Shown: piece by piece, positions 2,813 through 39,899 of the stretch | Position numbering within the stretch: the first letter of the stretch is position 1 | Layout of the letters: each line of letters opens with the position of its first letter | NCBI RefSeq assembly: GCF_000001735.4 | Contig: NC_003070.9 | Coordinates: forward strand, 8,556,001-8,620,000 | Length of the DNA stretch: 64,000 nt | Direction: 5' to 3' | Source of the DNA: Arabidopsis thaliana | Lineage: Eukaryota > Streptophyta > Magnoliopsida > Brassicales > Brassicaceae | Notes under the pieces: model-generated | The model's input: only the letters and a program-made list of their open reading frames with translations | The model's database searches: none | Told to the model about the DNA's origin: nothing | Made by a program: the position numbers and the translations under genes

Positions 2813-2850
2813 AGATTGGTTATGAAAGAGTCATTTTTGCTCATTGTCAT

Positions 2851-10800: not shown

Positions 10801-13800
10801 GGGAAATGGATAGTCTATTTCCGGCTGCAAATGCAAGAAGTGAATCATCCTCTCGCTTCTTTTCAGTAATCTCTTTTATCTCTGCCAACAATGCTACAGA
10901 AAAAATATAGTACATAAAGTCACTTGCTTGATATAATAGAATAATGTGTGTAATAGGTTACGGACAAACCTTTCATGCTCAGCTTCTTTGAATCCTGCTG
11001 TTTGAAGTAGAAACTTCGATGATCAAGCGACTTGTAGTAATTCTTAGCATATATCTCAGCCCAGACTTTGTCAAAATCAGAACGACACCTTGCCCACTCT
11101 TCTTGCTTCTGTTTCAAACGTGTTAGGATAACAGGTAAAGCAAGAGACACGTTCTTCTTCAGCACATCCATCACATCGAGCCCGTGATCACCATACAACC
11201 GTTCTATGCATCTTAAGTTTAGAGCTACAAAGACAGTAACAAAGCAATCCATTAAAAAAAAAAAAAAATTTAAAGAGCTCAGCTGCTAGTGATTTAACAT
11301 CCATGCTGCTTATTGTTTTACACCAGCTTATGTTACCTGTGAGGTGATCCTCGACACGGATGGGACTGTTGGTTTTCAGTTCATTACTGTTAATTTTTGT
11401 CAATAATTCTTCCACATGCTTTGTCGTTGAATTTACAGACTCTAATAGCATGTCCAGCTCAAACCTATAGCATAAAGAGAGGAATAATGGCTCACAATTT
11501 GACACAGAAAATGGCTCACAATAACAGGTCAGTAACCAATTTTTTTTTTTAAAGTATGGAATATAGGTTTCCAGTCCACCATTAGAAGTTGATTAACCAA
11601 CCTGTCATCCTCACATTTGAAGAGGCTCTCTTCATACTGGTTCTTACGCATGTGGCTAAATGAATAATCTTCACTTCCTGATGTGACGGAGACCCAGTGA
11701 TCATTAAGAACCAGTTTACCGATCTCTGTCTTCTGGCTTGCAATAGAAATTGGGTACTGCAAAAAGTATAATGTCTTACATTAGACTAATGAAACAAAAG
11801 ATGAACTCAAGAATAGTAGATCCACATATAAAAGGCTGCAGCCACATACATTCTTTGGAAGTAACCGATAACTAGGAGTGCATTGTTCACAGTTCGAGAG
11901 ATCTAGTTCACTGATTGGCTTTGCCCATTTCAGATTTGCAGCTGCTTTTTCAAGCCTTTCCTTTTCATGATCTCTATCTCTAAGCCCGTCATCTCTCTTA
12001 TGTTCCTGGTCTCTATCATTGTCCAGTGACGGTTGAGGATATTTGCCTTCACTCCACAAGGATTCTGCAGTATAGTTTAGAATGGATTTGTTTTCTTTTC
12101 AGAACTAGAAATGGATATATCTGGAAAGAAGATCAAATTTCATAGTGGAGTTGTGTAGTTTCACTACTCGTGAATACTTCAAATATATCTCAGCATCAGA
12201 TTCATGTACCCTTGCAAAAGATAAGTAGACTTACTCTTAGTCAGAATACCAGAGAGCAGTCCTTCTGCAAGAAGATTCAAAAGGTTACAAATCTGTCTTT
12301 TTTCTGAAATCAATGAATGTAGGAAGAGAGAAACATAGATTTGCCTCGTTACCATTCTTTTCACATTGCACCAAAAACTCTATAAAGGAATCCATGAGGT
12401 CAGGATATACTCCGATTAAATTCCCTACCTGATACAAGCACAAATGTTCATGAATCATTGCAAACAAATGCCACAGTGAAAATTTAAGCATTTTATTTAT
12501 TCATACCAAAGATTGCAGTTCTGGTCGGCTGATTATCTCTTTTGAAAAGAGATTAAGACAACGTAAAAACTCCTGGTACTCTGAGGCGTTAAGCTTTTCC
12601 TTTACTCTATCGACAATAGCTAGATCTTGACTGTAACCTGACATCACATCAAACAAATATAAGTACACATGGAATAGCGAACGACAAACTCACTCCTTAT
12701 CTTTCAAATTAGTTGTCATAAAACGAGAACTCACTTTTCATGGCACCTTTTTCATCATAAGTAGATGAACTAGGAACCGCTCCAGAAAGTTTACTTTGAT
12801 TGGAAATTTCAGCAGGATCATCGCCTCTAATATGTAGTTTCTGCTTCTTGTTGAGAAATTGCTCTTTTTTGCTATGTGGTTCGAAATCTCTGGCATCCCT
12901 ATGCTCATTTTCTTTGTTAGTACCTCTCATGTGTTCTTTATTTTCTTTCTTAATAGGTCTCTCCCGGTCCTGGTCAATATGTTCAGTACCATAGTCATGG
13001 TCAGGATGTGGAGTAATGATCCGGTCCTTCTGCAACAATTTCCAATCAAATGATGTTCAATAAAAGATTAGACATATAGAACATTGTATTTCTAGGAAAA
13101 TAAAAGTCTGAGAAGAACCTTATCAGCCAGAGAAACCCCTCTCTCACGAACTGAAGTTTTAACAGATGGAATAGAGGCCGTTGCTGAAGTATCAGGTAGA
13201 AAGTGAGTAAACTCCACGAGCAGATCTGAATGATCCCGAAATAGGATCGCAACCTGAGATAGACATGTAAAACCTAAGTACAGAATAGCAACAAAAAAAA
13301 GATACACATAACAGCATCAATGAGCCTACCTCCTGGTAGACCTCAGTGATGGACTTGCTATCCCTTCTGTACATGTTTAAAATGTCTAAAAATGATTTGT
13401 ATACACGATCATCTCCCTGAAACCTTGTCTGCAAATCAATGAATATCGAAGAGAGTAAGAAAGGGAAAAGCAGTAATTTCCTTGAGACAGTTTAGCACAT
13501 AAACATATATATACCTTAATCTTGTTAACAAAGCTAATAGCTTCCTCAAACTCAACACGTTTCTTCAGTGGAGGTTGTCCATCCTCAGGTTGAAGTGTGA
13601 TCTCAAAACCCTTAGGCAAGAAAGTATTAAACCCCAAAATCAACTCTTGGTGTCCTTTGAAAAGTTCTTTTACCCTAGTTATCACACCAGCTGTATCAAC
13701 TCTACAATGAAAAACACAATTAAGCAATCAGTTCTCAGATACCAAGTTTTTAACCTAAACATAACAAGGAGAAGAAAAAAACTATACCTTTGAGATTTAA

Positions 13801-13927
13801 AATTCTTCATAACCTCGAGAAACTCGTCATATTTTCCACGTTGATCCTGAAATTTGTCCTTCACGGCTTTAAGATATGCAAGAGCGTCGTTTGTAGTTAG
13901 CTTCTGAGCACTTCCTCCTCCAACCAT
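7858..13927 (-). CDS. SNL3: SIN3-like transcriptional co-repressor scaffold, SNL3
   Basis: Twenty-one coding exons, in order: 13927-13788, 13701-13515, 13428-13330, 13253-13119, 13029-12735, 12637-12507, 12428-12353, 12264-12235, 12064-11850, 11756-11602, 11464-11337, 11224-10970, 10893-10249, 10154-10069, 9827-9216, 9113-9013, 8924-8786, 8694-8542, 8448-8282, 8188-8086, 7986-7858. They total 3981 bases (1326 residues) with no frame conflict. SIN3 proteins bind transcription factors through paired amphipathic helices (PAH) and recruit histone deacetylase. PAH1 spans about residues 8-78, PAH2 about 95-165 and PAH3 about 285-350. The HDAC-interaction domain starts near [19 protein letters not shown] (about 415-435). 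An acidic region follows (about 930-1010), then the SIN3 C-terminal domain. This is the parent of the small PAH genes that follow it. The start codon sits in CAACCATGGT (plus strand), a context repeated in most of the copies. Confidence 0.95.
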
Positions 13928-14600
13928 GGTGTTTGAAGTTGAACAGAGCTTCATTACCATTAAAAAAAACAGATCATTTAGAAAGCTATTCAACATCTCA
14001 TAAGACCAAAGAACGTTTCTTTAGAGAATTCAAGTAAAATTTGGGATTCAGCAAAAGAACAAAAGCTGAAAACAACTTTCTTCATGTTCATCTACAAATC
14101 AAAACCTAGTAAAACTCAAAATCAATCACATAAACAAGGAAAATTCAAAGAACCGAACTTGAATTTCATCCCAATAAGCAACACCTGTAGATCTAGCAGC
14201 TACAGAAACAATTTATGAAGAAAAAACAAAAGGAGACGGACCAGAAAAAATCGATCTTAACTTAATCCTCAGATTATTTCACATTCAGTTCACGATTAAA
14301 ATTGTAATACCCAAAAATCAAACAGAAAGGATAAAAAACGAAAGAAGATCATCATCGTTTATGTGTTAGAGAGTTTACCGAAGAAATTCAGAGAAGACGA
14401 AGAAGAAGAAGAAGAAGAAGTCTAGAAGAAGAAGCTTCCTCCGACGAAACAGCTGAGAAGACAAAAACTATTCAACAATTTTCAGACAGAAAGAAAAGAC
14501 TCACTGAGCAAACGAGAGTTTTATGTTTTTATGAAGAAAGGATTGAGATTTCTCTCAAAGGAGTTTTACGTCTTCTTAAGTAAATTAAAATCTACATATT
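13928..14600 (-). promoter_or_regulatory. SNL3 5' leader with probable leader intron
   Basis: On the minus strand a good splice donor (TTCG|GTAAAC, near 14380) follows a GAA/TTC-rich leader (14398-14420). The sequence between it and the start codon is AT-rich and intron-like. Recognisable versions of this leader plus donor lie upstream of copies B, D, E and F and, more diverged, A and G, so the 5' region was duplicated with the exons. The acceptor next to the start codon was not fixed. Confidence 0.5.
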
Positions 14601-15522
14601 TAATACACTTTCTCGTTCGCTAAATTTTTCGTTTACTTACTTATTTCATTTTTCTGTTGACAAAAAATAAAATAAAAATCAAAGTTGTATTTTCTTGTTT
14701 TTATTACTTCCTTTTGTTGGTTGTATCATTTTAGGAGACTTATAATTTATCTTCTTCTTTTATTATTTTTAACATTTTTTTTCTTTTGGAAGTTTTTATC
14801 TCCTTTGGTATGTGAGAGAGACATACTTAATTTTGAAAATTTTTGATATAAAATAAATTATTCATTTTTTTTGGAAATAATTTTGTAATTAAAAAGTTTT
14901 AGATGATTAATCATATTATTAATAGATGTTTTTTTTCTCTTTATTTTGGTCAACATAGATGTTTTTTCTTAAAATTTCTAAGTTAATTACTTAATGCAAA
15001 ACCTATCAAAATTATTAATGGGGAAAAAATGTTCTAAAATCATTGATGTAAATGGAATCTATATTACATTACACGGTTAGATTTTGCTTAAATCTAAAAA
15101 ATAATATTTGGCTAACATTAATAGAAGAATAATTTAACTCTAACTTGATTAAAACCATAAAAACGGAACATATTATTCGCCTTTTAAATTCATTTTTTTT
15201 TTATCGGCATTACTATCTTTCCGGTAGACCGAAAACTTTGTCACCTTGTTCGTAGAATAATTCCGATAACCCTTATCCTCATGTTACACATAGTAAACTC
15301 ATAGGTAAGCATTGAAATAACTAGGTAAAAAAAAAAGCATTGAATAACTATAGATGATGGTAATTTTGAATTTTGATAGTGGCTATAATTTATAGGGAAA
15401 AGAAAGCTATTAATCATGCATATTAAAAAGAAAAAACCTCTACTATTATCTCTGACTTGTAACTTTAAAAAAAAAAAACTACTTATATGTGAAGCGATTG
15501 AAGTAACATAGCAATCCTTTCG
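14601..15522. other. AT-rich spacer between SNL3 and the first PAH copy
   Basis: Poly-T and poly-A rich sequence with no open frame of note and no recognised element. The part nearest 15480-15522 is the 3' flank of the first small PAH gene. Confidence 0.5.
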
Positions 15523-16377
15523 TCACAAAAAACTCTGAGAAATAGTTGGCAGAAAGCAATCCAACTCTTCAAGCAAATCAGGATGATCTATGCAAAACTG
15601 TGAATGCAACAAGGCTGTTGCTGGAGTAGCTGGAGTAGCAGGCAGAAAGTGAGTAAACTCCACAAGCAAATTGTTATGATCTAGAAATAGGATGGCAACC
15701 TGATAAGATAAACGTGTGAAACTAAGTAAAATATTAGCAATAAAAAAAAAAAAACTTAGTATGAATCAATGAGCCTACCTCCCGGTAGACCGCGGTGATG
15801 GGCTTCCTATCCTTTCTGTACATGTTTAAAATGTCTAAAACTGATTTGTATACACGATCATCGCCCTGAAACCTTGTCTGCAAATGAATGAATAACTAAG
15901 AGAGTAGGAAAGGGAAAAGCAGTAATTTCCTTGGACAGTTTATAACACATAAACATATATACCTTAATCTTGTTAATAAAACTAATTGCTTCCCCTAACT
16001 CGACAGGTTTCTTCTGTGAAGGTTGTTCATGATGTGTGATCATATAACCATTTGGTAAGAAGGCATTGAAACCCAAAAGTAATCCTTGTTGTTCTTTCAA
16101 GAGTTCTTTCATCCTTATTATAACACCAGATATATCAATTCTATACAACACAATAGTCGGTAATCAGTTCTCAGAAACCATGGAGTTTTACCTAAACCAA
16201 GACCAAATGCAAACATAAAAGTAGAAAGAACTTTAACCTCTGAGTTTTATAATCTATCATGATCTGAAGAAACTCGTCATATTTTTCACGTTGACCTTGA
16301 AATTTAGCCTTCACGGCTCTAAGGTATTTAAGCGCGTCATTTGTAGTAGGCTTGTGTGCGCCTCCTTCTCCAACCAT
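15523..16377 (-). CDS. Small PAH1-PAH2 protein (SNL3-derived copy A)
   Basis: Four exons: 16377-16238, 16140-15963, 15877-15779, 15699-15523, giving 197 residues. They correspond one to one to SNL3 exons 1-4: the 140-base first exon and the 99-base third exon are the same length as in SNL3, and splice phases agree. PAH1 covers about residues 8-75 ([14 protein letters not shown], then [10 protein letters not shown]), and PAH2 runs from about 92 to 160 ([20 protein letters not shown]). The copy ends where SNL3 would splice to exon 5, so PAH3 and the HDAC-interaction region are absent. The last exon shows a local duplication of the final PAH helix ([14 protein letters not shown], then [14 protein letters not shown]). 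Probably At1g24200. It may be expressed as a competitor of SNL proteins; this is inference. Confidence 0.85.
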
Positions 16378-17769
16378 GGTTTGAAGTTTAGGAAAGCTTT
16401 ATTGTTCAAAGAGAGGCAGCCAAAAAAAAAGGTGAAACATTATTAGAATCAAAAGATGGTGCAAGGTTTCTTCAAAAAATATTGGATCCTTGAACAACCC
16501 CAAAGTCTTAACAACAAAACAATTCATTCCTCAAGGTGATCCATTATTAGTTATCACACGTAACCTACACATGTGAAGTAGTCAATTCAAACACAGGGCA
16601 AACCAGTCAAGTATTGGATTTAGATATGTCCTACTCTCATTCTTAACCAAAGATACCCCAATTCAGAGATTGCCATAGTATTAAGTCTGACGGGATTAGA
16701 TTAACACTTTTTATTGGGGACAAAACAAAACTCATATCTAGTTTTGAGACTTCAAGTTGATTAAACTTCATCAGTCGGATTTGATATCTTATCACATATT
16801 ACGAAAAATATATTCAAGGAACTCGATATCATCCCACGAATACAAATTACAACAAGCAACAGATCTAGCAACTACAAAGGCAATGAACAAAGAAAATAAA
16901 ACTTGTAGTGGACGTAACGAAGATCACACAAAAAAGAAGAAGAACACATGTGTATAGGTACCAAAGACGAATGAAGAAGGCTTCACGATCACGAGCACGA
17001 AGCAGGGGAGACGAGTTTCTAGTCTCGGTAGGGTTTTGTTTATGTATTATGATTCCAAGGTTATGTAAGATTTTCTATTTATTTTAATGATTTTTTTTTA
17101 TTATTTGGTGTATTTTAATTAATTATGTACTTTTTTTAAAAGGGTTAAATCATCCATTTTTGTAACTTTACCCTCCACCTCCAATATATGCAGATTAATC
17201 TTATAAAGTTTAAAATAATACGCAATATGACATTTATACGTATATTGTAAACGTTTTTACGATGATATACATTAGAATTTTAAAATTTTGAAGGCAGAGT
17301 TGAACTCTTCATCGTGAGGGTTTAGATTTAATATATTACATGTCAATATTTTACAAAATTAATAGTAAAGAAAAAAACAAAGAAGGGTTACAATGCGTAT
17401 TATTTTAGACTTCATAGGATTAATCTCAATATGTTGGAGGTGAAGGATAAAATTGTAAAAATGGATGAGTTCGAAGTGTTTTTTTACACAAAACCCTTTT
17501 TTTAACAACCATTAATTAAGTACATAACAAAACTAAGAAATGAGTTTTAAAAAAATGTTTGATCTTTCATAGGTTTTTCATCAGTAAAATTCAACATAAA
17601 CAAAATAAGGTTATGAGAAGTATTTTTGAGTTTTGTGACACTTTGAGTTTCAATCATCTGAGTATATCAAATTCAAATCTCATCCTCTTCATGGTGAAAA
17701 GCAAAGATTTAAAACCTCTACAAAAGAAACTATACACTCCATTCTCATTCATAAAAAATACATCACTCG
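16378..17769. other. Spacer between PAH copies A and B
   Basis: Positions 16378 to about 17040 are the duplicated PAH 5' leader of copy A. Positions 17041-17560 are AT-rich and hold the foldback element listed separately. Positions 17600-17769 are the 3' flank of copy B, with the shared text TCAAATCTCATCC...AAACTATACACTCCATTCTC also seen after other copies. Confidence 0.6.
17151..17467. repeat. MITE-like foldback element with ~75-base inverted arms
   Basis: The left arm (17151-17225, starting CATCCATTTTTGTAACTTTA) is an imperfect inverted copy of the right arm (17395-17467, ending TAAAATTGTAAAAATGGATG). Matching text includes GGAGGTGAAGG against CCCTCCACCTCC and GGATTAATCTCAATATGTTGG against its inverse. 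The two arms flank about 170 AT-rich bases with no coding potential. This is the shape of a non-autonomous DNA transposon. Flanks with AAGGGTT and TTAATTA(A/T)GTAC on both sides suggest the true ends lie slightly outside, but the target-site duplication was not settled. Confidence 0.7.
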
Positions 17770-18527
17770 TTATAATTGTAGTAGTAGTGATGCTGTTGAT
17801 ACAGGGTTCTTTGTGAAAAATCTGAGAAAGTCTTCAATCAAATCTTCATGATAGAAGAGAACATCAATGACCTGCAAGATAATATTATTTCTAACCAAAT
17901 CAAACAAAGAGAACCAAAAAAAAAAAAAAAAAACACAAGTACACAAAATAGCCCACCAAGAACAAACATTACCTCCTCTTGCACCTCCTTTACCGACATC
18001 TTTCCCTCTTTAAACATCTTCATTAACCCGCGAATTGCCCCCACTACATGAGTATCAAGGCTCTGAAACCGTGTCTGCAGATGGACAAATTTGCTCTAGT
18101 TAGTAAAAGAGGAATCAAAAAAGGATTTTGGTGTTTCTCTCCAAGGATTATTTGTCATTTTAGCATGTGTTTACCTTGAGCTTGTTTATAAAATCCTCTA
18201 CAGAAACAGGTGGAAGGAAGACACTGAAACCAAGAAGAAGATCCTGATGATCTTTCATCAGTTCCTCCACCCTTGCAATGACACTATATTTATCGACTCT
18301 GCAAAAAGAGACTAGTAACATCAGAATCAATTCACAGTTGAAAGTAAAGACCAAACCAAATATAACAGGGAAGAAAAGAATACATACCTATGATCACAAA
18401 CACCATTCAAGAGCTTGATAAACTCTTGATATTTCGTAGGTTCATCATGAAATGTTTCCTTCACAGCAATGATGTATGAATGCGCATCATCCTTAGTTAG
18501 AGCAGGTGATACTCGTCTTCCAACCAT
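17770..18527 (-). CDS. Small PAH1-PAH2 protein (SNL3-derived copy B)
   Basis: Four exons: 18527-18388 (140 bases), 18298-18175, 18074-17973, 17871-17770, giving 155 residues. PAH1 helices are seen in [20 protein letters not shown] and in [20 protein letters not shown]. Exon 2 is shorter than in SNL3 because the loop between PAH1 and PAH2 is cut down to [16 protein letters not shown]2 follows ([14 protein letters not shown], then [19 protein letters not shown]). A new stop follows a short tail, and nothing after PAH2 is kept. The second exon pair is more diverged than in copy A. Probably At1g24210. All splice sites are GT-AG. Confidence 0.85.
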
Positions 18528-19875: not shown

Positions 19876-20245
19876 TTAGATCTCCAACCAATCTGGTAAA
19901 AATACATTGAAACCAGAAACCAAGTCTTGGTCTCCGTTAAGCAGTTCCTTCACCGCTGTTATGCAATCAGCCCTACTAATTCTGCAATGAAGTTATAAAA
20001 TCAAAATTAATTACTTCTTCAACACGAAAAAATTGAACCGAACATTTTTAGTCATATTTTCCAAAAACTATGTATATCACATACTTGCGAACTTTAAAAT
20101 CTTTCATAATCGCAAGAAAGTCTTCATATTTTTTTCTATCATTATGAAAATGATCCTTCACAGCCTTAATATATGCCTTTGCATCAATTTTGGTTGGCTT
20201 CGGCTTGTCTCCTTTATACACAAATATACTGTCTCCTTCCGACAT
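19876..20245 (-). CDS. Truncated PAH1-only protein (SNL3-derived copy C)
   Basis: Two exons: 20245-20085 and 19981-19876, giving 88 residues. Exon 1 (MSEGDSIFVYKGDKPKPTKI, then DAKAYIKAVKDHFHNDRKKY) and exon 2 (ADCITAVKELLNGDQDLVSG, then FNVFLPDWLEI) make one PAH fold equivalent to PAH1 of SNL3. A stop then falls at the position matching GFEI of SNL3, so PAH2 is gone. The splice phase (2) is conserved and the frame is open, so it could still be made. It lacks the MVG start peptide of its sisters. It may be an intact single-PAH mini-gene or a decaying copy. Confidence 0.6.
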
Positions 20246-22657: not shown

Positions 22658-23761
22658 CTACTCTTTTCCATCTCTTAAGAACCTATTATAGGCAGAGATT
22701 CCACTGAAATAGTCGCCAAACTCCATGACTAAATCTACATGATTCTGAAGAAGTGAAACGACCTGCAAAGTTAACAAATCAAATCAAACCAAAGAACTAA
22801 GAGAGTGAAACATACAACACAAATTGTCCCACCAAGAACACTACCTCCTGATACGCCTCATCTTTGGACTTGTTTCCCTCACTGTACATTTTCAATATCT
22901 GGAGAACTGAGTTAACTACATGACTACCATAGCCCTGAAACCTTGCCTGCACATGGACAATTTTGTTACTTAAACCGCAAGTTAACATATACTAAACATC
23001 AAAATGTTGTTTCCATTAGTTTACCATTTCAGCAATCTATACCTCAAGATTCTCCATAAAATTGGCGGAACGTTTTTTTTGTTTTTATTAGACTCAGCTG
23101 GAGGGATGGTTCTCTTAGCCTTTGGAATGAAGAAGGCTAAATGATCCACAGGACGGGTGGTTCTCTTATCCTCTGGATGGATGGTTTTCTTCGCTTCAGA
23201 AGGCATGATTCTGTTTCTATTAGCCTCTCGAGGGATAGTTCTCTTAGCCTCTCGAGGGAAGGTTTTCTTCGACTTGGGAGGGATGGTTCTGTTAGCCTTG
23301 GGAGAAATGGTTCTGCTAGACTTGGGAGGTATGGTTGCCTTTGGAGGGATGGTTCTACTAGCCTCGGAGGAGATGGATCTGGCAGCCTCTTCGTATTGCT
23401 TAGACTTGGGAAAGAAGACACTTAAAACAAGAAGCAGCCTCGGGTGCCCTTTAATGATTTCAGCCATCCTTGCACTGCCATTAGCTTCTTCGATTCTACA
23501 AAACATCAGAAAAAAATTCACAAGGTGTGTGTTTGTCACAGTTGAAAAACTTGGTAACTAAGAACCAAACCAAACGTAAAAAAATTCATACTTATGATCA
23601 CAAACATCATTCATGAGCCTAAGAAACTCGTGAAACTTTGCAGGTTCGTCAAGAAATGCTTCCTTCACATCAGCGATGTATGTAACTGTTTCACGTATAG
23701 TAGAAGCGATCTCTAAACGATAATCATCATCCATAGTTAGCTTCAGTGATACTCTGTTCAT
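22658..23761 (-). pseudogene. PAH gene copy D with repeat insertion and apparent frameshift
   Basis: Four SNL3-like exons can be drawn: 23761-23592, 23495-23043, 22946-22845, 22762-22658. Exon 1 has a PAH1 first half (ETVTYIADVKEAFLDEPAKF). Exon 2 has the second half, then about 100 residues of imperfect (R)TIPPKA-type repeats, then the usual PAH-linking helix. That helix (RSANFMENLE) is in a different frame from the rest of exon 2: one more base would be needed in an 8-A run (T run at 23073-23080). As read, splicing into exon 3 (ARFQGYGSHVVNSVLQILKM) gives a stop after about 9 codons, so PAH2 is lost. The start ATG in the MNRVSLK context differs from the MVG of its sisters. It could be a pseudogene, a truncated PAH1 protein of about 217 residues, or a sequence error in a homopolymer. 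Confidence 0.6.
23098..23400. repeat. Imperfect GGGATGGTTCT minisatellite in copy D exon 2
   Basis: Plus-strand units of about 21-24 bases contain GGGATGGTTCT(G/A)TTAGCCT(C/T) or close variants and recur about ten times. On the coding strand each encodes a variant of (A/K)xRTIPPKA. Frame is kept through nearly all units, as expected for in-frame expansion. The same motif occurs in copy E. Confidence 0.75.
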
Positions 23762-24565: not shown

Positions 24566-26413
24566 CTACTGAAATAGTATACTAGTAGAGATGTTGATGC
24601 GAAAGGATCCAAGTTTAGGAAAGATTCTGGTGAAATCCGCTCTCAAATCTTCATGGTAATAGAGAAGATCACAGACCTGCAAGATGTATTATATAACCAA
24701 ATTAAACCAAGTACTAAAGAAAGAAATGCAAACACAAAATAGCCCACCAAGAACCTACCTCCTCGTGCACCTCTTTCCGTGACTTCTTTCCTTCCTTATA
24801 CATTGTCATTATCGAGTGAAATGACCCAACTACATGAGTATCGATTCTCTGAAACCTTGTCTGCAGATCCGAAAATTTTGTTATATAAACTCACAAGTTA
24901 GCAAAGGAGGTAAGTAATATCAGACATGGTACCATCATTTTATATACCTTAAGCTTGTTCATAAAGTTCAATTCATCAGTGTGTGTAGGTTTCTCAGCCT
25001 CGGAAGGGATGGTTCTTCTAGCCTTTGTTGGAAGCTTGTTCATAAAGTTCAATTCATCAGTGTGTGTAGGTTTCTCAGCCTCGGAAGGGATGGTTCTTCT
25101 ACGCTTTGTTGGAAGCTTGTTCATAAAGTTCAATTCATCAGTGTGTGTCGGTTTCTCAGCCTCGGAAGGGATGGTTCTTCTACGCTTTGGTGGAAGCTTG
25201 TTCATAAAGTTCAATTCATCAGTGTGTGTAGGTTTGTCAGCCTCGGAAGGGATGGTTCTTCTAGCCTTTGGTGGAATAATGGTTATCTTAAGCTTCACAG
25301 GGATGGTTCTGCTAGCCTCGGGACGGGCGGTTCTTTTACCCTTAGCCTTGTGAGGAATTGTTGATTTAGCCGCAGGCAGGAGGATGGCCCTTAAACCAAG
25401 AAGCAGATTCCGGTGATCTTTCGTGAGTTCGTCCACTCTTGCAATGACACTATCGGCATCGAGTCTACAAAGAAATTAGTAACATCAGAATCAGTTCACA
25501 TGTGTGTTTGTTGTGTAGATTGAGACATGAAATTAAGAGAAAATCAAATGTACATGGAGAAAATAATCCATACCTACGAGCTTTATAATCATTCAAGAGC
25601 TTGAGAAACTCGGCATATTTTGCAGGCTCATCATGAAATGCTTCCTTCACAGAATCTATGTATGAACGTGCATCATCGAGAGTTTTCTCTAGTGGTACAC
25701 TTTTTCCAAACATGGTTCGAGATTTCCTTAACTCTTTGTTCGCATCAGGAGGGATGGTTCTATCAACCTTGGATAAGACGAGAAACTTCTTGTGCACCTT
25801 CTTTACCGACTTCTTCCCCTCATCAATCTTTTTCGTCATTGGGGGAAATACAAGACTATCAAGGCACTGCAGATATATATAGATTTGCTTAATACAAAAC
25901 ACAAGCTAGGAAAAGAGGAAATGTCAAAATGATATTTCCATAGGAGTATTCATCATCTTTAGCGATTCTATACCTTAAGCTTCTTCTTCCTATGATTCTC
26001 ACGATTAGCACGTTTCTTTTTGGCATCAACAGACTCATGGCGTTGCTCAACCTTGGGAGGGATGGTTATCTCAGCCTCGGGAAAGAAGACTTTTGAACCA
26101 AGATGCAGCTTGGGGTTCCCACTAATAAGTTCGTTGATTCTTGCAGTGATCCTATCTTTCTCAACTCTACAAAGAGAACTAACAACATCAGAAAAAAATT
26201 CGACAAGATGCTTGTTTTGTTGTGTAGACTCGCAGTTGAATTTAAGACCAAAACCAAACATAACAATACATACCTATCATCACGAACTTCATTCAAGCGC
26301 ATTCTAAACTCGTCAAATTTTGCAGGTTCATCATGAAATTCTTCCTTCACAGATTCAATGTATGAAACAGCATCAGCCATAGTAGGCTCCTGTGATACAC
26401 TTCTTCCAACCAT
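24566..26413 (-). CDS. Multi-PAH fusion protein with 27-residue tandem repeats (copy E)
   Basis: Six exons: 26413-26274 (140 bases), 26166-25974, 25866-25574, 25464-24948, 24860-24759, 24676-24566. They join without frame conflict to 451 residues. Exons 1-2 encode one PAH1 (DAVSYIESVKEEFHDEPAKF) ending in a Lys/Arg-rich stretch. Exon 3 starts with the remnant of a PAH2 exon (KKIDEGKKSVKKVHKK), then RTIPPDA, then a second PAH1 first half preceded by MFGKSVPLEKT. Exon 4 holds its second half and four 27-residue repeats with RRTIPSEAEKPTHTDELNFM. Exons 5-6 give PAH2 (TRFQRIDTHVVGSFHSIMTM). It is thus two or three PAH units fused in one reading frame; no HDAC-interaction region is present. An internal ATG at 25713 could start a shorter product of the second half. 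Two adjacent genes are the alternative, but the matching splice phases favour one. Confidence 0.75.
24952..25275. repeat. Four tandem 81-bp repeats inside copy E exon 4
   Basis: The plus-strand text AGCTTGTTCATAAAGTTCAA starts at 24952, 25033, 25114 and 25195, exactly 81 bases apart, and the copies are nearly identical. Since 81 is 27 codons, the array keeps frame. Each unit contains a copy of the helix that normally joins PAH1 to PAH2 (NFMNKLP) plus one RTIPSEA motif. Confidence 0.95.
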
Positions 26414-28038
26414 GGCTAAACCCTCCAAGAAAAAAAAAGAATTTGTGTTCAGTAAAACAGATCAAATCATTGAATCTAAACCTATTAATACTTTTTCTTT
26501 ACTATAAAGTCTCATTACTCAACAATTGCATGTATTTGTCAAAACCCTAATCAAATACAACATTGGATTCGAAGCGTCAATGTCACTCTCAACGATATAT
26601 AAGTCAAAAAATTAAGCGAACGTCAGGGGAATTTCATATACAGCAGCAACGAGCCAAGAACTCGATAGTAACTAAACCCTAATCGTCCGGTGAATACAGA
26701 ATTCAATTGAACGAAAATCGAAAGAGGAACCAAGTATAATTACCGAATTTGGCAAATTAGCAAGGAGGTTCTTCTTCGTTAGAGTAATGGAGCTTTAAGG
26801 TTTCTTCCAGAAGCAAATCCACAGAGACTGATTTGTTTTTGTTTTTTTTTGGTCAAAAGAGTTTTTATCTGCTTTTTATACAAATCTAGAGAACCTTGAA
26901 GATCAAGTAATTGAGAAAACTAATGGAGGATATGTTCAAGTAAAATAAATTATTTTAATTTTAGTTTAAATCCAATGGAGGATATTAATGTACATATTTT
27001 TAGGGATATCAATGTACATATTTTTAGGGATATTTTTAGTAATTTTTAGTAGATAATTTACAAAACAAGTTTGAATTAGATATTTAAAATATTTTCAATA
27101 AAAAGTGTGAATAATTAAAAACATATTTCATAAAAATCATATTTGAACAAAATCATAACAAATTTTACTTGAATTATCCAATTGACTACTAATTATTTGA
27201 AAATTTGTTGTTATTAGACTTACTTGATTTTTGTTTAAAACCAATGGAGGATATTAATGTAAATTTTTTTAGGGATATATTCCAAAACTATTTTTTCGTG
27301 GATAATTTACAAAAGAAGTTTGAATTAGATATTTAAAATATTTTCAATAAAAAGTGTGAATGATTAAAATCATATTTGAACAAAATCATAATAAATTTTA
27401 CTTGAATTATCCGATTGACTACTCAAATAAAATAATTTCTTTTAATTTTAGTTTAAAACCAATGGAGGATATTATTGTAAATATTTTTACGGATATATTC
27501 CAAAACTAATTTTTCGTGGATAATTTACAAAAGAAGTTTGAATTAGATGTTTAAAATATTTTCAATAAAAAGTGTGAATGATTAAAATCATATTTGAACG
27601 AAATCATGATAAAATTTACTTGAATTATCCGATTGACTTCTAATTATTTGATTTGTTGTGATTAGATTTACTTGATTTTTGTTTGCTCTGTAATTTTTGG
27701 CCATATATATAGGTTTGAGTAAAGGCTCTGTTCCTCTCTCTTTTTGTTTCTACATTAGACTAAGATGACCCCAAAATCTCATGTCTTCTTGGTAAGATTT
27801 AACAAACGAAATCATACACTCTCGTTTTAGTCTCTTATATTTACCCAAACCATTATGCATCTCATTGATCTCAAATATAGAAGCATATGAGTAAGAATCA
27901 AACTAATCTCAAATGTCTACAAATGATAACTATACACTCACTTCTCGTTAGAAAGAAGTACTCTTTTTGTCTCTTGTACCCCAAACATTATATTCCAAGC
28001 ATCCTAAAATAAAGCAGAGACAGTCTTCTATAATGTAC
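26414..28038. other. Spacer between PAH copies E and F
   Basis: Positions 26414 to about 26870 are the copy E leader (minus-strand donor near 26744). Positions 26937-27695 are the AT-rich tandem repeat. Positions 27700-28038 hold two versions of the shared PAH 3' flank (about 27775-27830 and 27890-27960), although only one gene follows. Confidence 0.6.
26937..27695. repeat. Three AT-rich tandem copies of a ~220-270 base unit
   Basis: Each unit contains CCAATGGAGGATATTA(A/T)TGTA (26972, 27241 and 27460, approximately), then ATAATTTACAAAA(C/G)AAGTT, then TTTAAAATATTTTCAATAAA and TTTACTTGAATTATCC. Spacing is about 270 and 220 bases. There is no coding potential. A shorter related fragment occurs near 34260-34300, next to another PAH copy. 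Confidence 0.85.
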
Positions 28039-29135
28039 TCATCTATCTCTAGCAGATTTTGACCCTGATGGACCAGTGGTTCTCTTGAAAACGTTTGAAA
28101 ACTCCATGACTAAATCTTCATGACCCTGAAGAAGTGCAACAACCTGCAAGCAAAGATAACAAAGCTAATCAAACCAAAGAGCTAAGAAGTGCAACACACA
28201 AAATGTCCCACCAAGAACCCTACCTCCTGGTACAAGTCATTTACGGATTTGTTTCCTTGTTGGTACATTGTCAATATCTCGAGAAATGACTCATATACAT
28301 GGCCATCATTCCCCTGGAACCTTGCCTGTACATCGATGAATTTGTTATCTTAAATCACAAGTTAGCGTAGAGGAAACACCAAAAATAGATTAGTTTACCC
28401 ATTTAGCATCCTGTATATACCTTAAGCTTGCTGATAAAATTTGCTACACGTATTCTTTTGTTATTATCAGGCTCAGCTTCGAGAGGGGTGGTTTTTGTAT
28501 CTCCAGTTGAGAGCAAGACACTGAAACCAAGAACCAGATTCCGGTGGTCTTTCATGAGTTCCGTCATCCTTGCAACGGCACTAGGAGCATCGACTCTACA
28601 AAGAGAGACTTAGTAACATCAGAATCAGTTCAGTTCACATGTGTGTGTTGTTTTGTAAGCAGAAATTAGGAGAAAATCAAATATAACATGGAGAAAATAA
28701 TTCATACCTACGGGCGCTATAATCATTCAAGATCTCGAGAAACTGAGCATATTTTGCAGGTTCATCACGAAATGATTCCTTCAAAGAATAGATGTATGAA
28801 CGTACATCATGAAATGTTTCCTTAGCCTCAGCTGGAAGGAAGGCATTGAAACGAAGTAGCAGATTCACGTGATCTTTCAAGAGTTCCCGCATCCTTGGAA
28901 CGACGGTAGCTAAATCGACTCTACAAAGAGAAAAATAACATGAGAATCAATCTCTCACATGTGTAGACTGTTTAAGAGCAAACCAAACATACCTATTAGC
29001 TCTTAAATCCAGCATGATGTCGAGAAACTCTCGATATTTTGCAGGTTGATCAGCCCCAAATGCTTCCTTCACAGCATTGATGTATGACGTCGCTTCATCA
29101 ATAGTAAACGCCGGTGATAAGCTTCCTCCAACCAT
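28039..29135 (-). CDS. PAH protein with duplicated PAH1 exon (SNL3-derived copy F)
   Basis: Five exons: 29135-28993, 28920-28708, 28595-28421, 28325-28224, 28143-28039, giving 245 residues with consistent phases. Exon 1 is a PAH1 first half (EATSYINAVKEAFGADQPAK). Exon 2 combines the PAH1 second half (VVPRMRELLKDHVNLLLRFN) with a second first half (VRSYIYSLKESFRDEPAKYA), as if the intron and exon 1 start of a neighbouring copy had been fused in. Exon 3 gives another second half ending in the VANFISKLK helix. Exons 4-5 give PAH2 (ARFQGNDGHVYESFLEILTM) and a basic tail. The HDAC-interaction region is absent. Length and position fit remembered At1g24230. Confidence 0.83.
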
Positions 29136-30430
29136 GGTCTAAAATTGGCCTAATCCATAAAGATTGAAGAGGTCTCAACTCATTGAAGAAACAGAAAATA
29201 GAGTGCATAAATACAAATCTTATTCCTCAAGAAACTTAATCCACCAAACAACACAATAGCCGAATTAGAAGAATCATGTCAAATTCATCGCAACAGGATC
29301 CTTAAGAAGATCCAGAATCAATCTCGAGTAGAAAGAAAAGAAAACAAAACCAAGAAGGATGAGCAAGAAACTAGAAAATTGCTCGAGCGCCTTTTAACCT
29401 AATCGTATCTGATGATGGAAGGAGAAGATGATCGTAACCCTAATCTTCCGGTGAGCGAAACTATGTTCAATCGAATGAGGAAGCAAGTATGTTACCGATA
29501 TATAAGCAGACCAAAGACGACAATGAACAAGAAGCAGCTTCGTCTTCGTCTTCTTCGCAGAGTAAGGGAGTTCAAGATTTCTAGAAGCAAAGTAAAACTT
29601 CAGAGACTTTTTTTAGAGTTTTTGTTCACGAGTCTATATTTATACTAGGGATTATCATATATTCATACTTGACTTCAATTTTTGTTGTAGTTGTAAAACT
29701 ATAATTTGTAAGAGAAAATTGAAACATAAATTTATAAAGATTTCTATATATCAAAGACGATGATGATGTGATATTTGTATTAATTTTAATCCTTGGTAAA
29801 TTCTTATATAAATTCGTAATTTATATAATTTAGGAAACATATTTGTTGTCATTAGATTTACTTGATCTTTATTTGGTTTGCTCTGTTTCTCTCTGTTTTC
29901 GTCTATACGTTGAACTCTGCTTTGACTTTTGAGTGCTTACACTCTCGCCTCTCGGTTTCTAACAAATATGACCCCAAACCAAAAATCATATATGTACATG
30001 CCAGAAGAAGAATCGACCTGAATTCAAATCTCTATAATATATGAAACAATACAATCACTTTTCACCTCAATGTTTTTTTTTTGTTAACATTGAGGTTTTC
30101 ATATGAGGTCATATCGATTTTGTTTTGAATTATTTTAGATTATGATTTCTACATGGATAGACAAGAGTTTTATTGTAAGTGCATGTATGTAATGATGTTC
30201 TGTTCTCTATACAATAAGCATCACACTAAACTCTTTCTAGCAAGAAGATGTCAAAGAAAAAAGAAAGGATGTATTTGATAAAAGCAAAAAATATCAGGGG
30301 TATATATGCAAATTACCAAAACAAAAATAAAGAAACCTGAAGGAGCAATGACAAGGGATTTGTTTTTCTCAAAATCTCTGAAAGCTTTTGGATATTTGTG
30401 ATCGCATAGATCGATTCCTTTTGCGGAGAA
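29136..30430. other. Spacer between copy F and the L19 gene
   Basis: Positions 29136 to about 29640 are the copy F leader (minus-strand donor near 29495). Another gene-less piece of the PAH 3' flank lies near 30010-30060 (GAATTCAAATCTCTATAATA). The L19 gene promoter must lie in the last few hundred bases, back-to-back with the PAH copies. Confidence 0.5.
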
Positions 30431-31970
30431 ATGCAATTGATTCGTGGCAGTACAAGGTTGCTTCAGAGGCATCGTTTCTCCATCTCCAACACTCTTCCTT
30501 TCACTTCTTCTTCTTGTGGAAGCTGGTCTGCTAATGAATCGAGGAAGCTAGGCTTTGATTCTTTCCCTAGTACTAGAGCTGCGACATATCTCATTAGCTC
30601 GTTGAAAAATGCCGGCTTTTCCTCTTTGGCAGTAGTACCTGTAAGCCATTGTCCTTCTCTGTCTTTGGTTTAAGATTGTTTTTTACTTCGTGTGGATTTG
30701 TAGAAATGTAGACGAGGTTTTGGTTGGTAATAGAGATCTTATGTCTAAATTGGTTTGAAAATTGCTAGGAATGTAAGAAAAACGAAAACTTTGATCTTGG
30801 GTTGGTCTCGCTGATTACTGATGAGTGTAGTCACTCTCCTAGCTTCAGATTCCACTGAATTCATCTTCCAAAAGCTCAGAGATCACTAAATAGAAAATGA
30901 ACTTAATCAATGATCTAAAGCTTTGTTGCTTGTTTTTCTTTTTAAGCTCTTTGTTGTTTTACTTGCAAGAGATGTAGATATAAAGGAACCAACTTCGTGC
31001 TCTTGTTACTTATTTTTCAGCTTTGACACTTAAGTTTTATGATTTCACATGTTGTTGTTCTACTTTATATGTTTTCTCTATGTTTTGGTCACCGTGATAT
31101 TTGGATTAGGCTTCTATGGGTTTAAGATGTTCTTGGGAATATTTTTTTGGCAGAAACAAAACTTTTCGTCGAGGTGTTTTTCCACCACTGGAGATTCTGT
31201 TCAAGGATCCCCTGAGTCAGATTGTGTTGTGCCTCAGAGAATCAAGTTTAAGCGGCTTGATAAAACCGCTAAGCATATTATGCAGGTACTACAACTCGAA
31301 CTTGACACTTGTATTTAGATATATCATGTAGACAAGGAAGCACCGATGTCACAATCCTCTGCAGATTGTAGACAAGGAAGCAGTTGAGGAAGTGAGAACT
31401 CTTAGAGAGATTCCAGAGATAAAGCCTGGTTACATTGTGCAGCTAAAAGTGGTAACTACTGTTGGCCTAGGTTGTAATTTCTTTTTCTTGGGTGAGTAAG
31501 ATCAAACTATCTTTCATCTTCTAAGTGAAACCTTTCATTTACTTTGTTTGAACAGGAAGTGCCTGAGAACAAGAGGCGTGTATCAATCGTAAAAGGCGTC
31601 GTCATAGCAAGGCGTAATGCTGGTCTCAACTCAACATTTAGAATTAGAAGGCTTGTTGCTGGAGTGGGCGTCGAATCCATGTTCCCCTTGTAAGTAACTT
31701 CAAGCTTCAAGCTTGTGCAGCCACTTTAATCTTTTTCTCTCAGACTTTTGTATATGACCATTAAGAGCCATTATTATAATCAAGAGCCACCATGTTTTGT
31801 ATGTTCTCTTTGTTTGCCTTGGTCATGGAAAATACTGATGTAAGTGGAGGTGTTTTGGTGACAGGTATTCCCCAAACCTGAGGGTGATTAAGGTGGTGGA
31901 CAAGAAGAAAGTAAGAAGAGCCAAGCTTTATTACCTCAGGGAAAAGGTCAATGCTCTCAAGAAGCATTAA
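30431..31970 (+). CDS. Ribosomal protein bL19 family, probably mitochondrial
   Basis: Five exons: 30431-30640, 31154-31285, 31365-31451, 31556-31689, 31865-31970, giving 222 residues. The bL19 core is clear: [40 protein letters not shown], then [31 protein letters not shown] and a basic end [16 protein letters not shown]. bL19 sits at the interface of the large and small subunits of bacterial-type ribosomes. The N-terminus ([20 protein letters not shown]) is rich in Arg and Ser with no acidic residue, typical of a mitochondrial presequence; a plastid target is less likely. This gene interrupts the PAH cluster and is on the opposite strand. Parts of intron 4 and the 3' end are duplicated near 37.0 kb. 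Probably At1g24240. Confidence 0.9.
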
Positions 31971-32441
31971 CAGCCTTAATAAGAATTAGCAGTCTACTCT
32001 TGTCTTTAAGAATTGAATTTGTGTAATCGTGAATCTCTTCAATTCTCTTGATAAGCCAATCATCACAAGCAGGTTAAATTGATCTTTCATGAGTTCACCT
32101 CTCTGTTTTTGTTTCTACGTTGAACTCTGTTTTTTGAGTGTTTCCCTTCTCAGTTTCTTATAAAAAGATTACCCTGAAAATAGCATATTGAACACCTCAA
32201 CATAAAAGAAACCTCAACAAAGAAACTATACACTCTCTTTTAGTCTCTTATACACCAATTCATTGTACACCTCAACATAGAAGCATAGCATATTTTTGAA
32301 TGTCATGTTAATCAAACAAAACTCTAATGTTTGCAAAAGAAAACTAAAAACACTCTCTTTTCGTGAGAAGCTCTACTTTCTTTTTCGTCTCTTATGGTAT
32401 ATTACAGTCTTCCAGTACTCTCCTTAGCTATCTGGCTATCT
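31971..32441. other. L19 3' flank meeting PAH copy G 3' flank
   Basis: The L19 gene and copy G converge here. Two copies of the PAH 3' flank text are present (about 32180-32250 and 32310-32400), one more than the number of genes. No other feature was seen. Confidence 0.55.
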
Positions 32442-33546
32442 CTAGACTCCAGTAGGTGGATCAGTCAAAATTTGTGAAAGCTCCATGACTAAATCGTCAT
32501 GACCCTGAACAAGTGCAACGACCTGCAAAAGATAACAAAGCAAATCAAACCAAAGAACTAAGAAAGTGCAACACACAACACAAAGTATCCTACCAAGAAG
32601 CCTACCTCCTGATACGCATCATGTTTGGACTTGTTTCCCTCACCGTACATTCTCATTATCTGAAGAACTGAGTCAACTACTTGACTACCATCGCCCTGAA
32701 ACCTTGCCTGCACATGGACAATTTTGTTACTTAAACCACAAGTTAACATATAGGAAACATCAAATGGTAACTATAAGCACTCTATACCTTAAGCTTCGTG
32801 GTAAAACTCGTTGTAGCTGAAAGGAAGACACAGAAACCAAAAAGCAGATTCAAGTGATCTTTCATGAGTTCCTCCACCCTAGCAATGACACAAGCGGCAT
32901 CGACTCTACAAAGAGACTTAGTAACATCAGAATCAATTCACATAATGTGTTTGTTCTGTAGACTGAAAAAATCAAACATAACATGGAGAAAAGAACTAAT
33001 ACATACCTGCGAGCTTTAAAATCTTTCAAGAGCTTAAGCATTTCCCCATATTTTGCAGGTTCATCATGAAAGGCTTCCTTCACAGCAATAAGGTATGAAG
33101 TCGCATCATCTATGGTAGGCTCCGGACGTGGTAGACTTCTTCCAACCACCTTTGGTGGTACTGGTACGCTTCTTCCAACCACCTTATGAAACTCTTCGCT
33201 AGCCTCGGGAGGTATGGTTAACTGATACTCAGGTGGAAGTAAGACATTTAAACCAAGACACAGACTCGGGTGATCTTTCAAGAGGTCCTGCATGCGTGCA
33301 CTGAAAGTAGGCATACCGATCCTACAAAGAGAAAAATAACATCAGAATCAATTCTCACATGTGTCATTGTTCTTTAGACTGTTTAAGAGCAAACCAAACA
33401 CACCTAGGAGCTGTAAAACCACGAAAGAGTCTTACAAACATTCCAAATCTTGCAGGTTCCATTTCCTGCAATGCGACCTCCACAGCATTGACGTATGCCT
33501 TTACATCTTCCAAAGATGACGCCGGTGATAAACTTCCTCCAGCCAT
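32442..33546 (-). CDS. PAH protein with duplicated PAH1 exon (SNL3-derived copy G)
   Basis: Five exons: 33546-33404, 33321-33007, 32905-32788, 32707-32606, 32522-32442, giving 252 residues with consistent phases. The layout is that of copy F: exon 1 is a PAH1 first half (DVKAYVNAVEVALQEMEPAR), and exon 2 fuses a second half (FSARMQDLLKDHPSLCLGLN) to another first half (TSYLIAVKEAFHDEPAKYGE). Exon 3 is a second half and exons 4-5 are PAH2. The linker in exon 2 contains TIPPEA plus two VVGRS units, recalling the MVGRS start of other copies. It ends without any HDAC-interaction region. Length and position fit remembered At1g24250. Confidence 0.85.
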
Positions 33547-37189: not shown

Positions 37190-37308
37190 TAGATCGTAAC
37201 TCTAATCGTCGGGTGAATTCACATTTCAATTGAGATCTTAAACCTATGTTTAAGGTATCTGATAAACTTGTCTATCAAATCTTCATGATAATTGAGAATA
37301 TCAACTAC
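37190..37308 (-). pseudogene. Relic of a PAH gene: leader fragment plus terminal exon
   Basis: Positions 37219-37308 on the minus strand read VVDILNYHEDLIDKFIRYLK and a stop after a good acceptor (CTTGCAG). This is the last exon of a PAH copy, closest in form to copy B. Immediately on its lower-coordinate side, 37190-37236 carries PAH leader text (CTAATCGTCGGGTGAATTC). No other PAH exon is present here. The order (leader, then last exon) is that of a junction between two adjacent tandem copies. Confidence 0.75.
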
Positions 37309-37310
37309 CT

Positions 37311-39862: not shown

Positions 39863-39899
39863 TTTCTTTTTCTTTCTCCTCTCCCAAAAGATATCTCAA

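Follow-up and report, generated by a model that had tools for sequence, protein, structure and literature searches.

The closest described relatives of the genes analyzed here are the SNL1-SNL6 scaffolds of Arabidopsis, which resemble them in PAH1, PAH2, exon structure, splice phases, and sequence. MicroProteins, which are short proteins reduced to the interaction domain of a larger regulator, offer a second comparison. PAH domains bind partner helices and are not known to dimerise. A PAH-only product of a SIN3 gene without the HDAC-interaction domain is also known in mouse, where Sin3b-202 arises by alternative splicing of one gene (PMC4914931), whereas the genes described below are separate duplicates; the part of that paper accessible to us does not mention positive selection on Sin3b-202. 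Outside the SNL genes, lists of NLR-integrated domains include PAH (PMC4759884, PMC6709784), and the NLR WRKY19 likewise contains a PAH1, which goes unmentioned in the WRKY19 nematode paper (PMC7020509). AT1G23810 already appears in PMC2869330 as a paired-amphipathic-helix gene that was transposed. Among the matches listed from the open-licence literature (no preprints), we recognised no study of these PAH genes as a family, which is weak evidence of absence, no microProtein work on PAH, and no link to pollen or endosperm. The same literature yielded no plant effector-SIN3 link and, for a sister PAH cluster at 9.46 Mb, nothing beyond PMC2869330.

The analyzed window spans 64,000 nucleotides of Arabidopsis thaliana chromosome 1 (NC_003070.9, positions 8,556,001 to 8,620,000). 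In the interval upstream of SNL3, seven genes built from the SNL3-type 5' part lie in tandem, all on the minus strand, as SNL3 does (Table 1). Self-BLAST and exon mapping confirmed the arrangement given in the initial annotation, with the correction that the seven genes hold ten PAH1 units, two each in A5, A7, and A8. The lowest E value among the cluster matches was 7e-150, for SNL3 versus A1, and chance is therefore excluded as the source of the similarity. The second PAH1 unit is joined through a fused e2.e1 exon in A7 and A8 and through an e3-like.e1 exon in A5. Exon 1 measures 140 nt in three of the seven copies (A1, A2, and A5), 143 nt in two (A7 and A8), 161 nt in A3, and 170 nt in A4, and it ends in phase 2 in every copy. 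The PAH2 exon is 99 nt long in A1 and 102 nt in A2, A4, A5, A7, and A8, and is missing from A3; that of A4 is in frame only with a start 5 nt downstream, which reduces it to 97 nt. The linker between PAH1 and PAH2 of A4 consists of basic RTIPPKA-type repeats, and the A5 linker contains four 81-bp in-frame repeats (~24951-25276). A1 is presumably AT1G24200, judging from gene order. A weak PAH-like fragment at ~37.2 kb lies outside the cluster interval.

Table 1. Positions in the window, exon composition, and products of SNL3 exons 1-4 and the seven cluster genes
Feature	Position	Strand	Exons	Product and remarks
SNL3 exons 1-4	13119..13927	-	e1 13927-13788, e2 13701-13515, e3 13428-13330, e4 13253-13119	PAH1 + PAH2
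A1	15523..16377	-	e1-e2-e3-e4	197 aa, PAH1 + PAH2; copy most like SNL3
A2	17770..18527	-	e1-e2-e3-e4	155 aa, PAH1 + PAH2; clade v
A3	19876..20245	-	e1-e2 only	88 aa, one PAH1; clades with B1 and B3 of the 9.46-Mb cluster
A4	22658..23761	-	e1-e2-e3-e4	~274 aa; in frame only via acceptor at 22941
A5	24566..26413	-	e1-e2-(e3-like.e1 fused)-e2-e3-e4	451 aa, two PAH1 units
A7	28039..29135	-	e1-(e2.e1 fused)-e2-e3-e4	245 aa, PAH1a-PAH1b-PAH2
A8	32442..33546	-	e1-(e2.e1 fused)-e2-e3-e4	252 aa, PAH1a-PAH1b-PAH2; first PAH under diversifying selection
A8 exon 1	33404..33546	-		H1 + H2 helices of PAH1a; omega ~2.7 over five genes

All seven window proteins scored above the Pfam gathering threshold for PAH (PF02671; E 9.6e-15 to 9.7e-46). 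Seven tblastn probes covering SNL3 beyond PAH2 (E ≤0.01, fetched regions) matched SNL genes only, with no match at 14-34 kb, and a repeat search with PAH3 (two pieces) and HID probes (E ≤1) gave nothing at 14-34 kb beyond one chance-level match of 9 residues (18431-18405, E 0.60) inside A2 exon 1. These searches agree with the original statement that each copy ends before PAH3 and the HDAC-interaction region, and, together with the ATG-to-stop frames described below, they uphold the picture of open, tandem, PAH-only genes. The cluster genes differ from the SNL/SIN3 scaffolds, in that PAH3, the HDAC-interaction region, and the C-terminal part were not detected and omega ranges from 0.6 to >2 instead of 0.09. 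Like microProteins, their products comprise the interaction domain alone of a larger regulator; the difference is that PAH binds helices and that competition is only putative here. Pfam found no NLR parts in the window proteins, only PAH families and weak unrelated matches, so they are not NLR integrated decoys. The PAH of WRKY19, in contrast, is fused to an immune receptor and belongs to a different SNL branch (with SNL5/6 in the PAH1 tree, 85/94).

Descent of all seven copies directly from SNL3, the single parent proposed at first, was rejected by the PAH trees. Six copies fall into two further clades, both shared with the sister cluster at 9.46 Mb, which lies ~0.9 Mb from the window cluster and whose PAH genes we take to be AT1G27220-27280. 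The older of these, clade v, comprises A2, A4, A5, A7, and A8. Only A1 looks SNL3-derived, and its two trees disagree: it groups with SNL3 for PAH2 (86.8/83), partly over a likely conversion tract, and lies outside all SNLs for PAH1. SNL2 and SNL4 likewise have truncated 5' copies upstream in the same orientation (C1-C3 and D1, respectively); C1 and C2 group with SNL1/2 (86.2/84; SNL1+SNL2, 85.5/95). A tandem duplication with its inner breakpoint inside an SNL gene would produce a 5' partial copy that ends up upstream of its parent, on the same strand and with its own start, and this expected arrangement is the one seen at SNL3, SNL2, and SNL4. Such a copy would lack everything after PAH2 and would encode a PAH adapter devoid of HDAC-interaction parts. 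T1, presumably AT1G23810, together with B4 and B5 has the PAH1a-PAH1b-PAH2 architecture of A7 and A8 and belongs to the same family at other loci. T1 is nearer to A8 (87.5% over 2.1 kb) than to the 9.47-Mb gene (82%), whereas a table in PMC2869330 gives AT1G27270 as its best hit.

The PAH1 tree and the branch model were based on 30 units, leaving out C3 (exon 1 not established), a broken unit near C1:8.419 Mb, the first unit of B6, units near 8.510 and 8.515 Mb, and a fragment at 24.328 Mb. In the branch model, omega was 0.09 for the SNL/backbone branches, 0.62 for A1/C1/C2/D1/WRKY19, 0.71 for A3/B1/B3 and 1.23 for clade v other than A8a/T1a/B5a (both indistinguishable from neutral), and 2.62 for A8a/T1a/B5a (p=0.004 against 1). 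Pairwise dN/dS between A1 and SNL3 was 0.42. Neutral dN/dS, named in the initial annotation as one sign of a pseudogene cluster, does not hold throughout: in the double-PAH1 genes, the value for exon 1 lies above 1.

Selection was examined in five double-PAH1 genes (A8, T1, B5, B4, and A7) from one reference genome, with exon 1 picked after the identities had been seen; A5 and B6 were left out because of different or broken architecture. Introns are better conserved than exon 1 in A7, A8, and the three relatives elsewhere. Exon 1 dN exceeded intron divergence in all ten pairs and exon 1 dS in nine; taken singly, eight pairs reached p<0.05 for replacement over introns and two for replacement over silent changes. 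A joint model with introns gave an exon 1 omega of 2.74 (LRT 47.3), a signal matched by none of 60 null simulations, and with its own branch lengths exon 1 had an omega of 2.40 (p=0.004). Exon 1 omega was 2.43-3.84 in three runs that omitted B4 (which has no ATG at the usual place), B4 and A7, or A8 and B4. Localisation to exon 1 is weaker because, under separate branch lengths, e2 (2.27, p=0.05), e4 (3.58, p=0.03), and all non-e1 exons jointly (1.39, p=0.05) also exceeded 1; the fused e2e1 exon stood at 1.13 (not significant). By domain, omega was 2.75 for H1-H2 of PAH1a, not clearly above the 2.27 of H3-H4, and 1.24 (not significant) for the twin PAH1b, and it exceeded 1 for PAH2 only in some subsets (1.67, p=0.005, without B4; 1.66, p=0.007, without A8 and B4). 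Against the local neutral reference, omega above 1 was therefore clearest for PAH1a; elsewhere in these genes the signal was weaker and depended on the subset. On these comparisons, PAH1a amino acids change faster than the adjoining non-coding DNA, a pattern that signals evolutionary conflict or adaptive change.

The clefts of PAH1, PAH2, and PAH3 sit mainly between H1 and H2 (PMC7948954), and the Sin3A substitutions A126V and K155E reduce partner binding (PMC13068551). Chain 2rmr (71 aa) was matched to SNL3 8-78; if it starts at 119, Sin3A A126 and K155 correspond to SNL3 A15 and K44. These two residues do not vary among SNL1-6, and A15 is kept in seven and K44 in six of seven conserved minis; both are altered in A8a, T1a, and B5a. 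Equivalence at M40 was taken from PMC7948954 with our own register. A1 keeps A15, L16, L19, L37, M40, and K44, A3 has changes at L16 and L19, and A2, A4, A5, A7, and A8 have changes at several of these six cleft residues. L16, L19, and L37 are presumed to be SNL-type cleft residues. L16, conserved in six of six SNLs, is replaced in all eight clade-v PAH1 units and M40 in six of them. On our best reading, the copies other than A1 would have left the SNL-type cleft.

The initial annotation had suggested that the PAH-only proteins could compete with SNL proteins. In its simplest, microProtein-like form, all seven would bind the repressors of SNL3 and titrate them from HDAC complexes, which we consider unlikely. 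The PAH region alone suffices for SNL partner binding, as reported for VAL1 with SNL3 aa 1-390 (PMC9266683) and for HDIP1 with the PAH domains of SNL5/6 (PMC12170880), and A1 fits best, with its dN/dS of 0.42 against SNL3 and its six retained cleft residues. However, L16, and often M40 and K44 too, is lost in the five clade-v genes, for which competition is unlikely, and a mimic of a conserved partner would not be expected to show a PAH1a omega well above 1. HDIP1 also binds HDA19 (PMC12170880), so having PAH domains alone does not imply being without HDAC, and in mouse, knockdown of the short Sin3b isoform did not raise the reporter, whereas knockdown of the long isoform did (PMC4914931). What is left of the suggestion is that A1 may compete with SNL3; A1, and perhaps A3, would retain so much of the SNL-type cleft that they could vie with SNL proteins for binding repressor helices.

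Quite improbable is the view that the cluster consists of unexpressed, truncated duplicates whose frames are open by chance in this reference genome. The truncation itself, the dependence of A4 on a shifted acceptor, an omega near 1 across much of clade v, and decayed relatives (B4 without ATG, B6 with first exon and last acceptor broken, and the broken unit near 8.419 Mb) would fit it, yet all seven copies have ATG-to-stop frames with GT-AG splices, that of A4 by using the acceptor 5 nt downstream. In addition, each of the nine gap runs found in e1, e2e1, e2, and e3 across the five double-PAH1 genes has a length divisible by 3, as against 9 of 23 in introns; those in e4 are 1, 3, 4, 19, and 35 nt long. 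A pure pseudogene cluster was rejected on the open frames and this gap pattern. Under neutrality, the five terminal branches would have stayed free of stops with a probability of ~3.5e-4, for genes chosen partly for intactness, and a PAH1a omega of 2.4-2.7 cannot come from neutrality. Transcript changes have been reported for AT1G24200, the presumed A1 (PMC4357605, PMC5099669); among the window copies, the printed expression data consulted concern this locus only.

It is very improbable that the exon 1 excess reflects not selection but a hotspot of local mutation, or sequence brought in from a divergent donor by conversion or recombination: conversion is probable in the cluster, given an SNL3/A1 tract of 93% over intron 2-exon 3 (~68-69% in introns 1 and 3) and the mosaic structure of A4, whose 3' part resembles A8, but the neutral tree length of exon 1 is 0.43, no different from the 0.43 of the remaining exons combined (singly 0.17-0.61), and so gives no sign of a local mutation excess, the A8-T1 exon 1 changes, nearly all replacements, fall on both lineages (12 A8, 9 T1, 2 unclear), and none of the 29 units compared is closer as a donor to either, so that both causes were rejected. 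A divergent 5' region, hinted at by comparison of the upstream 200 bp, was dropped because the low figure came partly from gaps; in a multiple alignment of 300 bp upstream, A8, T1, and B5 are close by eye.

Our best reading, to which we give about an even chance, is a birth-and-death cluster of SNL-derived PAH adapters without HDAC parts in which PAH1a is diversifying. It builds on the anatomy, the open frames, the outline phylogeny, and the graded omega values, and it presumes clade-v expression, folding, binding, competition, and the nature of the target. In the older clade the cleft would have changed, three members would have gained a second PAH1, and PAH1a would have been driven to change in the PAH1a-PAH1b-PAH2 genes. 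Since PAH1b has no clear excess and PAH2 has one only in subsets, PAH1a most likely follows a moving target; candidates are a pathogen effector, a selfish or reproductive factor, and a fast-evolving repressor. A more specific version, which we regard as rather doubtful, makes PAH1a a free-standing decoy or sensor that tracks a fast-evolving foreign or selfish protein with a SIN3-interaction helix, PAH1b and PAH2 keeping the house function. If this were true, the cluster would amount to a soluble equivalent of the PAH that WRKY19, an immune receptor, acquired separately. SNL PAH1 is strongly conserved. A gene family with one PAH that evolves faster than its own introns is unexpected. For the question of what determines PAH specificity, this family offers cleft variants made by nature, and it suggests that conflict may take place at SIN3-type recruitment.

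Seven genes related to SNL3 (A1 to A5, A7, and A8) lie upstream of it, all on the minus strand, as mapped with SNL3 exon probes and explicit gene models in the window, which spans C1:8556001-8620000 on Arabidopsis thaliana chromosome 1. A1 is presumably AT1G24200, and the locus names of the other window copies are likewise presumed from gene order. SNL3 is At1g24190 (PMC9266683). Its exon 1 (e1) encodes helices H1 and H2 of PAH1, e2 encodes H3, H4, and a linker, and e3 and e4 encode PAH2. Every window copy has an ATG, a stop codon, and GT-AG introns at SNL phases, with the exception of A4, in which the exon 2 donor is phase-shifted and an acceptor 5 nt downstream is required. All seven proteins exceeded the Pfam PAH cut-off, and no PAH3, HDAC-interaction region (HID), or C-terminal SNL homology was found in window 14-34 kb with SNL3 probes. 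The window proteins are PAH modules without PAH3 or HID, as the initial annotation had proposed.

Positions and structure of features in the window and at related loci
Feature	Position	Strand	Description
A1, A2, A4		minus	e1-e4 kept (SNL3 exon probes, gene models)
A3		minus	e1-e2 only (SNL3 exon probes, gene models)
A7, A8		minus	e1, fused e2.e1 exon, e2-e3-e4, giving PAH1a-PAH1b-PAH2 (gene models)
A5		minus	e1, e2, fused e3-like.e1 exon, repeat-bearing e2, e3, e4 (gene models)
A5 linker	24951-25276		In-frame 81-bp unit, ~4 repeats; degenerate RTIPPKA-type repeat at the matching place in A4
SNL3-A1 tract	13316-13484 and 15765-15933		Intron 2-exon 3, 93% identical
Tandem array	26936-27684		Between A5 and A7; ~218-249-bp units
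Direct repeat	36110-36249		77% match to part of the NYN-like ORF
NYN-like ORF	36491-36793		Sub-threshold NYN-domain match, E 0.003
PAH-like fragment	37225-37318		Weak; 82% over 62 bp with region at start of A2 last exon; beyond the initially annotated interval (13788..33546)
MADS-box ORF	39638-39895		SEP3
Inverted duplication	44611-51243		Large; the two arms, at about 44.6-47.8 kb and 48.2-51.2 kb, match piecewise at ~74-85% identity
T1	C1:8414001-8422000, region positions 2721-5234		Closest to A8 (87.5% over 2.1 kb); 9.47-Mb gene 82%; A8 upstream sequence on either side
WRKY19	C4:7199001-7209000, region positions 3691-4036		PAH1 exons e1 and e2; clusters with SNL5/SNL6

The copies had been read as offshoots of SNL3. 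Unrooted trees of PAH units from genome-wide PAH searches show that they and their relatives comprise several lineages. In the PAH1 tree, a clade designated v (A2, A4, A5, A7, A8, T1, and B2 and B4-B6 of a second cluster, B1-B6, at C1:9.463-9.475 Mb) was set apart from all else (91.1/97). A3 grouped with B1 and B3 (87.6/91), C1 and C2, which together with C3 adjoin SNL2, with SNL1/2 (86.2/84), and the WRKY19 PAH with SNL5/6 (85/94). D1, upstream of SNL4 on the same strand, had a tree position without support; the PAH2 tree (18 units) split A1, D1, and the SNLs from the remainder (99.3/98). A1 fell outside all SNLs in the PAH1 tree (87.5/92) and joined SNL3 in the PAH2 tree (86.8/83), the latter result coming from exons partly covered by a likely conversion tract. 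Silent divergence outside this tract favors an origin of A1 from SNL3: dS in exons 1 and 2 was 0.61 and 0.51 for A1-SNL3 and 0.88 and 0.88 for SNL3-SNL4, and identity in introns 1 and 3 was 69% and 68%, versus 60% and 57%. Truncated copies lie upstream of SNL2, SNL3, and SNL4 (no ATG was seen in the C1 exon, and the C3 first exon was not established), and tandem duplication ending inside an SNL gene could have generated them.

The SNL3-A1 tract is likely a gene conversion that reached the conserved scaffold gene SNL3, with intron 2 more similar between the two genes than introns 1 and 3 (~68-69%; Fisher p=0.0003). The 3' part of A4 is 89.6% identical to that of A8. Together, these segments indicate that sequence exchange among copies continues. 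For AT1G23810, presumably T1, the best match in a published table is AT1G27270 (PMC2869330).

Constraint differed among lineages. Pairwise dN/dS was 0.10-0.20 among SNLs, 0.42 for SNL3-A1, 0.34 for SNL4-D1, 0.29 for C1-C2, 0.39 for B1-B3, 0.61 for A3-B1, 0.66 for A3-B3, 0.49 for A2-A1, 0.71 for A2-B2, 0.87 for A2-A4, and 1.14 for B6-A7. On the 30-unit PAH1 tree, omega was 0.09 for SNL/backbone branches, 0.62 for A1, C, D1, and WRKY19 (p=0.051 versus 1), 0.71 for A3/B1/B3 (p=0.20), 2.62 for the first PAH1 units (PAH1a) of A8, T1, and B5 (p=0.004), and 1.23 for other clade v branches (p=0.15).

The strongest selection test covered five double-PAH1 genes (A8, A7, T1, B5, and B4) from one reference genome. 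Total dN/dS exceeded 1 in 8 of 10 pairs; exon-1 dN exceeded intron divergence in all 10 and exon-1 dS in 9, the exception being T1-B5. Over all exons of single pairs, replacement change exceeded silent change at p<0.05 in 2/10 and exceeded introns in 8/10. A8 and T1 differ at 12/346 intron bases and 23/143 exon 1 bases, with exon-1 changes on both lineages; no other unit, out of 27 compared, lay closer to A8 or T1. A joint codon and intron model gave omega 2.74 for exon 1, which was picked out only after identities were seen, and 1.47 for the remainder (LRT 47.3; matched by 0/60 omega-1 simulations, maximum 6.9). A single omega over all exons was 1.69 (LRT 29.3; 0/60 simulations). A second topology or omission of introns gave the same picture (exon 1 omega 2.53-2.94). 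With its own branch lengths, exon 1 had omega 2.40 (p=0.004; neutral tree length 0.43); e2 (2.27, p=0.05) and e4 (3.58, p=0.03) were likewise above 1, e2e1 (1.13) and e3 (1.05) did not exceed 1 by test, and the non-e1 exons pooled gave 1.39 (p=0.05; neutral tree lengths 0.43 pooled, 0.17-0.61 singly).

With one set of neutral branch lengths for every domain, omega was 2.75 for PAH1a H1-H2 (p=5e-12), 2.27 for PAH1a H3-H4 (p=2e-5), 1.93 for the linker (p=0.003), 1.24 for H1-H2 of the second PAH1 unit, PAH1b (p=0.27), 1.21 for the second e2 (p=0.30), and 1.29 for PAH2 (p=0.10). PAH1b, an internal control in the same gene and tree, ranged from 1.06 to 1.53 over four runs (p 0.06-0.87). The excess is greatest in PAH1a and may extend beyond it, because PAH2 exceeded 1 in some subsets only: 1.67 without B4 (p=0.005), 1.66 without A8 and B4 (p=0.007), and 1.22 (ns) for A8/T1/B5 alone. 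The neutral probability of all five genes staying stop-free was 3.5e-4, a value biased by choosing genes partly as intact; the open frames of all seven window copies are free of this bias.

The clefts of PAH domains are situated chiefly between helices H1 and H2 (PMC7948954, PMC13068551), both encoded by exon 1. PAH1 has Met where Sin3A PAH2 has L332 (PMC7948954), a position that in our alignment register corresponds to SNL3 M40. Met occupies it in 6/6 SNLs and 6/7 conserved truncated copies (A1, A3, B1, B3, C1, and D1; Leu in C2), and Leu in 6/7 PAH1b units; PAH1a of A8, T1, B5, B4, and A7 has F, F, F, L, and M. Patient variants at Sin3A A126 and K155 weaken binding to Tet1 and SAP25 (PMC13068551). 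These would be SNL3 A15 and K44, provided that 2rmr begins at residue 119, an equivalence taken from two matched stretches that are each 71 residues long rather than residue by residue. The same five PAH1a units have V, G, G, A, and A at the A15 position and T, I, T, R, and R at K44.

AT1G24200 is reported as up in gcr1-5 (log2FC 5.47), next to LBD27 in the list (PMC4357605), and as an Al-induced gene whose expression under Al stress surpassed the Col-0 level in a transgenic line (PMC5099669). No published expression of window clade v genes was found in the literature searched. A phosphosite is listed for the PAH2-superfamily protein AT5G15030 (PMC13054138), whose locus number is near that of SNL2; it falls at residue 171 or 207, and the C1-C3 models (<90 aa) are too short to include it.

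The window proteins could act as soluble adapters that bind helices. A1, and perhaps A3, might compete with SNLs, as the initial annotation suggested for the copies in general; this is supported by the sufficiency of SNL3 aa 1-390 for VAL1 binding (PMC9266683) and by a PAH-only Sin3b isoform in mouse (PMC4914931). Counting against it, HDIP1 binds both SNL5/6 PAH domains and HDA19 (PMC12170880), and a PAH-only protein therefore need not be HDAC-free. An immune role would lean on PAH as an NLR-integrated domain (PMC4759884, PMC6709784); that PAH stems from another SNL branch, which counts against such a role, and no tie of any window gene to immunity was found in the analyses and literature examined. 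As for the sequence change in PAH1a, this unit may be tracking a changing partner.
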